NCBI GenBank assembly: GCA_938049325.1
Contig: CALICC010000059.1
Location: 1 to 36,074, forward strand
DNA: 36,074 nt
Origin: an uncultured Ilumatobacter sp.
GTDB lineage: Bacteria > Actinomycetota > Acidimicrobiia > Acidimicrobiales > Ilumatobacteraceae
Reading direction: 5' to 3'
Shown here: piece by piece, positions 21,157 to 22,836 of the stretch
Position numbering within the stretch: position 1 is the first letter of the stretch
Layout: each line of letters begins with the position of its first letter
Program-made: the position numbers and the translations under genes
The notes under the pieces: model-generated
Told to the model about the DNA's origin: nothing
The model's input: only the letters and a program-made list of their open reading frames with translations
The model's database searches: none

Positions 21157-21693
21157 TCATGCGACGGACACGACAGGCACGGTGTCGACCGGGCCCATCT
21201 CGTCGTAGATGACTTCGGGGCGTGGGTTCTTCGGCGGACGTCCGCAGGGCCGCTTGTTCGCTACGACACGGCCGCCGGAGATGAGCTCGCCACCCCAGAC
21301 GCCCCACGGCTCCTCGCGCTCGATTGCCGAAGCGAGGCAGTCCGCAGCGAGCGGGCACAGCCCGCACATTGCCTTGGCGCGGGCGATGTCGACCACGTTG
21401 TCGGAGAAGAACAGAGCGGTCAGCGTGCCGTTGCCGTCGGCGCAGCGAGCGACCGGAGCACGAGCGGCCAACGAGTCGTCGCACTCATCGGCACCCACGT
21501 CCTCGCCCGGCGGGCGAGGACTGTCTGGGGGCAAAGCGCCTCGATCCGGCAGTGCGCCGTCGAGTTCATCGTTGATCGAAGGGGAAAACATGGTGGGGTC
21601 CTTGGCGTAATCGTGAGTGGTGAGCGTTGACGTCCGGGCTGAATTGACGGGCCGGAGCGGTGTGGCGGTCATGTGGGTCTTGGTGGTGTCCAT
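21157..21693 (-). CDS. WhiB-family Fe-S transcriptional regulator with C-terminal AT-hook-like GRPPKNPRP (paralog A)
   Basis: RCADGNGTLTALFFSD...AKAMCGLCPLAADCLASAIEREEPWGVWGGE...CGRPPKNPRP. WhiB Cys set, GVWGG turn and AT-hook. Confidence 0.9.
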   Translation of the reverse strand: MDTTKTHMTATPLRPVNSARTSTLTTHDYAKDPTMFSPSINDELDGALPDRGALPPDSPRPPGEDVGADECDDSLAARAPVARCADGNGTLTALFFSDNVVDIARAKAMCGLCPLAADCLASAIEREEPWGVWGGELISGGRVVANKRPCGRPPKNPRPEVIYDEMGPVDTVPVVSVA

Positions 21694-21708
21694 GTCATTG
21701 ATTCCTTC

Positions 21709-21750
21709 GTGTCTTGCTGGTGGTGTCTTGCTGGTGGTGTCTTGCTGATG
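21709..21750 (-). repeat. 3 x 14-bp tandem repeat in the 5' leader of whiB paralog A
   Basis: gtgtcttgctggtg x2 plus gtgtcttgctgatg (minus strand CACCAGCAAGACAC). Confidence 0.9.
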
Positions 21751-21765
21751 CAGTCATGTGGCCCC

Positions 21766-21805
21766 GAAAACGCAAAAGCCGCCGGGTTCTGATGAACCCG
21801 GCGGC
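21766..21805 (-). terminator. Intrinsic terminator upstream of whiB paralog A
   Basis: Minus strand GCCGCCGGGTTC-ATCA-GAACCCGGCGGC followed by TTTTGCGTTTTC; perfect 12-bp stem. Confidence 0.9.
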
Positions 21806-21833
21806 CTCGGAGGAGGTGATGACGTTTCGTGAG

Positions 21834-22064
21834 TTACGTCATGCCTTCGAGGCGGCCGGGGGTGAGTCGCTTGGTTGCGTACTTGGAGCCAAAACCCTTG
21901 CTCTGCACGTCACCAAGCCACAGATTCGTGGTGGTCGGCATTGCAATGGCAGCGGTCGGCGCGGTAGCAACGTGCGCGGCCGAGGCAACGGTTGCCACAT
22001 GCGTCAGCGAGCAGGCGCGAGCGACGAGCCGGTCGGTGGCCCGGTTGTGGGTCATGATCGCCAT
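21834..22064 (-). CDS. Small ORF (76 aa), candidate leader ORF of the whiB unit
   Basis: ATG preceded by GAGAGGAGCGACACC (good Shine-Dalgarno); MAIMTHNRATDRLVARACSL...WLGDVQSKGFGSKYATKRLTPGRLEGMT; ends shortly before the terminator. Confidence 0.55.
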   Translation of the reverse strand: MAIMTHNRATDRLVARACSLTHVATVASAAHVATAPTAAIAMPTTTNLWLGDVQSKGFGSKYATKRLTPGRLEGMT

Positions 22065-22356
22065 GGTGTCGCTCCTCTCGCTCAGCTGTTTGATGCGCGC
22101 GACCTCATGGTCGGCGTTCGATTACCAGGCAAACAGGTCGCGACCACTCCGGTCAAGGAGGTTTCGCGATTTCTCGACATTCTTTTCTCGCAGCGCCGTC
22201 TCGACGACCGAATTCGATCCTCAGTCACGCTCGTCTGGGCGGGTCGGAGCCTTCCGGTTCATCGGCCAGCGGTGCCAAGTCGCGGCGACGCTCGGCACCC
22301 GCAGCGGAGAAGAGGTCGGATGACATCGGTCGAATGATGTCACCCCGGGCCTCCGG

Positions 22357-22836
22357 TCAGGCCACCAGGTGTGCGGGGATCGGCACCTCTTCGACTTCGA
22401 CCACGGGGCGCGGGTTCTTCGGCGGGCGGCCACGCTTCGGCCGAACGTCGACGGGGACGCCGTCGATGACGAGCTTGCCGCCCCACACGCCGTACGGCTC
22501 GAGGCGCTCGATGGCACCTTCGAGGCAGGAGGCCCGCAGCCCACACGGTCGGCAGATTGCGCGGGCTCGAGCGATGTCGTGGTCGTCCTCGGAGAAGAAC
22601 AACGACGACAGCGTTCCATGTCCGTCGGCGCAGCGTGCGTAGCTCGTGCCCGTGTCCTGCTCAGCGTCTTCATCGATGCCATCGGCAGCCTCACGAAGGA
22701 TCGGTGCAACAGATTCGAGCGAGACCCTCCGGGTGTAGGTGACGCTGTGCGAGCCGGTGTGGGTCGCTGTGTCGGCGACGGCATCGTCGCGATGCGCAAG
22801 CAGATCGAGGGCGGGGATGCTGGAAGGGAAGAGCAT
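22357..22836 (-). CDS. WhiB-family Fe-S transcriptional regulator with C-terminal AT-hook-like KRGRPPKNPRP (paralog B)
   Basis: RCADGHGTLSSLFFSEDDHDIARARAICRPCGLRASCLEGAIERLEPYGVWGGK...KRGRPPKNPRP. Confidence 0.9.
   Translation of the reverse strand: MLFPSSIPALDLLAHRDDAVADTATHTGSHSVTYTRRVSLESVAPILREAADGIDEDAEQDTGTSYARCADGHGTLSSLFFSEDDHDIARARAICRPCGLRASCLEGAIERLEPYGVWGGKLVIDGVPVDVRPKRGRPPKNPRPVVEVEEVPIPAHLVA

Follow-up and report, generated by a model that had tools for sequence, protein, structure and literature searches.

A predicted ribosome-operated attenuator in the leader of a whiB7 gene from Ilumatobacter

The region in front of a whiB gene from an uncultured Ilumatobacter is, with a probability of about 90%, the attenuated 5' leader of whiB7, operated by ribosomes that translate an upstream open reading frame (uORF). 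The window (the whole stretch of DNA analysed, 36,074 nt) is contig C59 of a metagenome-assembled genome (draft of 3.9 Mb, 79% complete). By WhiB protein, it is closest to Ilumatobacter nonamiensis and further Ilumatobacter records, which places it in this genus of the class Acidimicrobiia. The parts of this leader (Table 1) are conserved in relatives, and three of its helices covary: an intrinsic terminator, a hairpin enclosing the uORF stop codon, and an antiterminator. Alignment and folding support an antiterminator that is mutually exclusive with the terminator and could be masked by a ribosome completing the uORF.

A preliminary description of this DNA had proposed ribosome-mediated attenuation of the whiB7 type. 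This part of the description is supported by the identity of the downstream gene as a WhiB7 ortholog, by the conserved leader ORF and terminator, and by a covarying, mutually exclusive antiterminator. The elements it had listed (Shine-Dalgarno sequence, 76-aa ORF, stop hairpin, 12-bp terminator with U-tract, threefold 14-bp repeat and whiB) were all recovered at the same or nearby positions. The present analysis adds a conserved promoter-like block 5' of the ORF (22165-22127), the 5' arm of the terminator as the antiterminator partner, a second whiB gene next to the locus, and the variant AT-hook.

The target gene and its tandem paralog

Two whiB genes are arranged in tandem on the minus strand: the gene behind the leader, referred to as the target, and paralog A (22357-22836). 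Both have the Pfam WhiB domain (PF02467; 46.7 bits for the target, in which the Cys ligands and the turn motif are present). The turn reads EPWGVWGG in the target versus EPYGVWGG in paralog A. No NCBIfam model matched either Wbl protein or the leader peptide. Among solved structures, the best match of the target is WhiB7 from M. tuberculosis (E = 1.4e-18, 70 bits), followed by WhiB3 (2e-5); paralog A reached 44 bits. In a tree of 71 Wbl proteins, computed from a short alignment that leaves some forks open, the leader-bearing WhiB group is placed with WhiB7 from Actinomycetes (97/91), and paralog A falls outside. Sequence comparison thus gives good, if not perfect, support for the target being a WhiB7 ortholog.

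The target had been described as an AT-hook WhiB gene. The assignment to WhiB can be narrowed to WhiB7, but the AT-hook is CGRP where RGRP is standard: GRP is kept and the first Arg is lost. This Arg-to-Cys change (KRPCGRPPK) is common to Ilumatobacter and near relatives. KRPGGRPPK is found in a sister genus, and KRPRGRPPK, with an intact RGRP, in the other members of the family. Paralog A has an intact AT-hook (KRGRPPKNP) and is devoid of an attenuator leader. The tandem arrangement of whiB genes was found again in several relatives.

Architecture and conservation of the leader

Table 1. Features of the whiB7 locus. Positions refer to the window; elements are listed in the direction of transcription.
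Feature	Position	Strand	Characteristics and evidence
Box GAAACCTCC, directly 5' of -35	22157-22165	-	conserved; alignment of 21 leaders
-35 element TTGACC	22151-22156	-	TTGAC kept in 19/21 aligned leaders
-10 element TTGCCT, spacer 18 nt	22127-22132	-	leader alignment; predicted transcription start near 22120
Shine-Dalgarno sequence GAGAGGAG of the leader ORF	22072-22079	-	SD-like sequence in 49/61 relatives' leaders
Leader ORF (uORF), 76 aa	21834-22064	-	variable body, conserved 3' end
Lys-Arg codons AAG CGA	21867-21872	-	12-13 codons 5' of the stop, in 48/61 leaders
Antiterminator 5' strand CCCGGCCGCCTCG	21848-21860	-	within the final 9 uORF codons; 12/13 complementary to 21797-21809; covariation, swap test
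Stop-codon hairpin, 5' arm ATGACGT	21836-21842	-	includes the T of TAA; covariation
Stop-codon hairpin, 3' arm ACGTCAT	21819-21825	-	covariation; swap test 0/5000
Conserved linker ATCACCTCCT	21811-21820	-	presumed likeness to the 16S rRNA 3' end
Antiterminator 3' strand CGAGGCCGCCGGG	21797-21809	-	overlaps the terminator 5' arm; covariation, folding, swap test
Intrinsic terminator, 12 perfect pairs	21778-21805	-	arms 21805-21794 / 21789-21778
Terminator U-tract TTTTGCGTTTTC	21766-21777	-	T-rich tails in relatives too
14-nt repeat (threefold) in the terminator-whiB7 gap	21709-21747	-	sequence only
whiB7 ortholog	21157-21693	-	178 aa; EPWGVWGG motif, AT-hook variant KRPCGRPPK; similarity search and tree

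In the window, the terminator is the only perfect hairpin of at least 12 bp that is followed by a U-tract; 30 Markov-1 windows contained none. As leaders of relatives, we took the regions 5' of the best WhiB matches from a search of the family. A terminator of the same kind, preceded at a distance of 21-36 nt by the stop codon of an ORF, is present in 73 non-redundant family leaders. Because ORF, stop hairpin and terminator recur in front of the orthologous gene in these 73 relatives, the arrangement of the elements is not due to chance. Inspection of orthologous loci for the small ORF and the terminator had been laid down beforehand as a check, and both are present in all of these leaders.

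A covariance model was trained on 61 of the 73 leaders. It detects the leader at freshwater whiB7 loci outside the training set (E = 4e-12 to 2e-7) and finds none at the tandem paralog or at other Wbl loci of the host genome. In a genome-wide scan, a strong match (E < 1e-5) was obtained in 28 of the 37 family genomes, one per genome. In 28 of the 30 loci returned by the scan, an intact WhiB accompanies the leader; the other two are a locus situated at the end of a contig and one whose whiB7 is frameshifted. Where a family genome gave no leader match, a close WhiB7 is in most cases missing as well. The leader is present in two genomes from other families of the order as well. Outside Acidimicrobiia, the model gave weak results (E = 0.8 at the correct position, and 0.8 or weaker for the leaders from Actinomycetes tested). 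No Rfam family matches the leader.

Several loci deserve a remark. L200 (G099:C7) combines a strong leader match with a frameshifted whiB7; neighbouring genes are broken too, so that assembly errors are probable. L070, L072, L078, L092, L095, L100 and L103 are titled Bifidobacterium breve or Acidobacteria bacterium, yet they are whiB7 loci of the Ilumatobacteraceae type, and the titles look wrong. Genome G034 (L183, G034:C6; same genus, 94% complete) has a natural deletion. Promoter and uORF start are retained; the 3' end of the uORF, the terminator and whiB7 have been removed. The promoter is now located 5' of a redoxin gene, which is the one found further down in the window. Switch and whiB7 have thus disappeared together.

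The leader ORF had been considered unusually long. This does not hold up against the family, where reliable leader ORFs (those with a Shine-Dalgarno sequence) have 22-119 aa with a median of 65, nor against Sphaerisporangium, where up to 113 aa are reached. When the 76-aa peptide was used as a query, only two congeners had convincing matches (I. nonamiensis, E = 2e-15; G012, E = 2e-7). A third match, 5' of whiB in G064, had an E-value of 0.13, and the remainder was noise. In the ORF body, 34 of 72 changes between close pairs are synonymous (25% expected), with a crude dN/dS-like ratio of 0.36, the pairs not being independent of each other. Such a pattern fits an ORF that is translated but only weakly constrained. 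At the 3' end of the ORF, the motif CCCGG..CCTCG occurs in differing frames (encoding T-P-G-R-L-E versus P-A-R-H-L-G), and this portion is apparently conserved as RNA. The Lys-Arg codons are always AAG followed by CGN, the third base of the Arg codon being free. The dipeptide is possibly a stalling site, or the codons reflect an RNA constraint. In L094 and L101 (freshwater clade), the uORF starts about 9-12 nt past the -10 element and may be leaderless or nearly so.

Leader peptides are rich in Ala (15%) and Thr (12%). It could be argued from this composition that the leader is an attenuator in the style of trp or his, in which the ORF senses shortage of a particular charged tRNA rather than general failure of translation. 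We consider this rather unlikely: there is no conserved run of a single codon, length and body of the ORF vary freely, and GC-rich codons also predict a high Ala content. Amino-acid-specific sensing is in any case a refinement of attenuation and not an exclusive alternative to it.

The aligned leaders share a predicted promoter 5' of the uORF, composed of GAAACnTCCTTGAC, an 18-nt spacer and a -10 element TTGyCT. The long form of this promoter pattern has a single occurrence in the host genome and in each of four congeners, always at this locus, with 0 matches in reversed controls; 6 of 11 congeneric genomes have no exact match. The block GAAACCTCC-TTGAC is conserved and is a candidate element for autoactivation by WhiB7. 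A WhiB7 regulon defined via this block was considered and dropped: within the genus, the long pattern matches this promoter alone, and a laxer form gives a few scattered extra matches of no clear meaning except for that in G034.

The position of the promoter bears on the question of whether the terminator merely ends an independent 76-aa gene, with whiB7 being transcribed from its own promoter further downstream and no switch being involved. The terminator does follow closely behind the ORF (27 nt from the stop to GGCC). The conserved promoter, however, sits 5' of the ORF, and the peptide body is barely conserved, in contrast to the RNA pairing, which is conserved and covaries (see below). A scan for sigma-70-like promoters came up empty throughout the region, also in the 72 nt that separate the terminator from whiB7. 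This negative is weak because the scan was strict and failed to recover even the conserved promoter 5' of the uORF, the -10 element of which lacks the A. An independent gene, which had already been named as the alternative in the preliminary description, is thus very improbable. By the attenuation reading, uORF and whiB7 would share the promoter 5' of the uORF.

Mutually exclusive helices and the proposed switch

Covariation was analysed for the 61 leaders, as had been recommended, and all three helices covary. For the terminator, 97.1% of cells are paired, and 7 of 13 pairs show changes on both sides. The corresponding values are 88.8% and 5 of 12 pairs for the antiterminator, and 90.2% and 4 of 6 pairs for the stop-codon hairpin. 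When the 61-row alignment was scanned without guidance for standard pairs that covary, pairs of all three helices were among the best. Antiterminator and stop hairpin score above every slid control and above all, or nearly all, of the shuffles. Shuffles are an incomplete control for relatedness, and the stronger argument is that independent states are repeated in several clades. Antiterminator columns 27-98 hold G-C in 24 leaders and A-U in 21; columns 26-99 hold G-C in 53 and A-U in 6. The ORF and the 5' arm of the terminator vary as partners (CCCGGC with GCCGGG, CCCGAC with GTCGGG, CCCAGC with GCTGGG). Because the terminator in many GTCGGG leaders then relies on a G-U pair, the change in the ORF is best explained by the antiterminator. 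A mismatch is retained at this antiterminator position in some leaders (e.g., L163-L170).

Independent of any alignment, the tail of an ORF pairs more stably with the terminator 5' arm of its own leader than with those of other species (-23.0 versus -20.6 kcal/mol; 0/5000 permutations in this swap test). In the RNAalifold consensus of the alignment, the terminator alone is visible, as expected for two mutually exclusive structures. The competition had originally been placed elsewhere, between GGCCGCC near the end of the ORF and the 3' arm of the terminator. This pairing was rejected: it does not covary, being present in 61.8% of cells, which equals shuffles, and the swap test gave 469/5000. 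The conserved partner of the ORF 3' end is the 5' arm.

Behind the stop hairpin follows a linker, (AG)ATCACCTC(CTT), which is near-invariant in 10 of 11 Ilumatobacter-type leaders (L008-L018). Pairing of ATCACCTC with the 3' end of the ORF was also considered; the swap test does not support it, and single folds show a 3-bp helix. We take the linker to match the 3' end of 16S rRNA; a 16S rRNA was sought in the host MAG and not found. It is tempting to speculate that the whiB7 system of Ilumatobacter has been rebuilt as a tandem, in which a WhiB that is free of attenuation and retains its AT-hook stands beside an attenuated WhiB7 that lacks the first Arg of this motif, with the Lys-Arg stall point and the 16S-mimicking linker of the attenuator serving as extra sensors. 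This idea is doubtful, and we attach little weight to it.

Folding with and without a ribosome footprint, likewise recommended at the outset, gave the opposite outcomes predicted for an attenuator. When the 3' arm of the terminator has not yet been made and no ribosome is present, the modelled probability of the antiterminator in the window is 0.99. Once the RNA is complete and a ribosome occupies the stop codon, the terminator has a probability of 0.997 and the antiterminator is gone. The trend is the same in 61/61 leaders. If equilibrium is assumed and no ribosome is present, the terminator prevails in most cases (mean probability 0.92), and read-through would therefore have to depend on the antiterminator folding first. 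Such a dependence on folding order is normal in attenuators.

The switch that we propose would be kinetic and would work as follows. Transcription would begin about 55 nt 5' of the leader ORF, which is presumably translated. Ribosomes that translate to the end of the ORF would mask its 3' portion, leaving CCCGGCCGCCTCG unable to pair; the terminator would then fold, and whiB7 would be off. If translation is blocked or stalled further upstream, the putative signals being ribosome-targeting antibiotics or amino-acid starvation, CCCGGCCGCCTCG would pair with CGAGGCCGCCGGG and enclose the stop-codon hairpin. The antiterminator would sequester the terminator's 5' arm at a time when the 3' arm does not yet exist, and the polymerase would read into whiB7, the product of which presumably has the role of its orthologs.

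Strong conservation of RNA elements, together with the lack of a matching Rfam family, might also be expected if a trans-acting factor or a ligand (an antiterminator protein or a riboswitch) were to read the leader and the ORF were incidental. The stop codon, however, lies within a covarying hairpin, and the stop-terminator spacing stays within 21-36 nt in all leaders, which fits a sensor for ribosomes; a conserved single-stranded pocket was not found. Control by such a factor or ligand is extremely improbable.

Relation to known attenuators

Attenuation of whiB7/wblC by a uORF and a terminator, with an antiterminator that forms when translation fails, is established (PMC11550727, PMC9618640, PMC12421871, PMC4128351). 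For Mycobacterium and Streptomyces, it was described by Burian and Thompson (2018) and by Lee, Lee and Roe (2022), according to the summaries in PMC11550727 and PMC9618640. Our literature search returned no report that pairs whiB7 with Ilumatobacter or with the class Acidimicrobiia; Lee 2022 may already note the breadth of the mechanism. The attenuator studied in mycobacteria and Streptomyces is here extended to Acidimicrobiia, a deep and largely uncultured actinobacterial branch that includes abundant freshwater lineages. This suggests that sensing of ribosome trouble by the whiB7 leader is old, rather than an adaptation that belongs to pathogens or to producers of antibiotics. The family alignment pinpoints the bases of the antiterminator and the nested stop-codon hairpin, so that clear mutational tests are possible.

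With the systems from Mycobacterium and Streptomyces, the leader shares an orthologous regulator, a uORF with a Shine-Dalgarno sequence, a Rho-independent terminator between uORF and whiB7, and a promoter that is predicted to lie 5' of the uORF; an antiterminator is expected to form upon failure of uORF translation. It differs by its taxon (Acidimicrobiia), and it cannot be confidently aligned to the leaders from Actinomycetes tested (E = 0.8 or weaker). Furthermore, the AT-hook in Ilumatobacter lacks the first Arg, and an unregulated tandem whiB paralog adjoins.

The order uORF-terminator-whiB7 is also found in Pseudonocardia and Cellulomonas. In leaders from Sphaerisporangium, Streptosporangium and Pseudonocardia (L119-L136), the uORF ends 17-30 nt before a AGGCCGCGG terminator. 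Before the terminator is made, five Streptosporangiaceae leaders are predicted to fold like that in the window, with a two-part antiterminator stem and the stop-codon hairpin nested within. The arm sequences are different in these three genera, and the fold is less clear-cut in Pseudonocardia. The characterization of the leader as a divergent version of the whiB7 attenuator therefore applies to its sequence but not to its architecture, the same nested composite antiterminator being seen in the Streptosporangiaceae folds.

Ribosome-mediated attenuators also control ilvB1 in M. tuberculosis, with codons for branched-chain amino acids (PMC13236596), and the ABCF resistance genes are5sc and tiaA, with very short ORFs (PMC12421871). 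As proposed for the leader of whiB7, a ribosome on the leader ORF selects between terminator and antiterminator, whereas the regulated genes are different.
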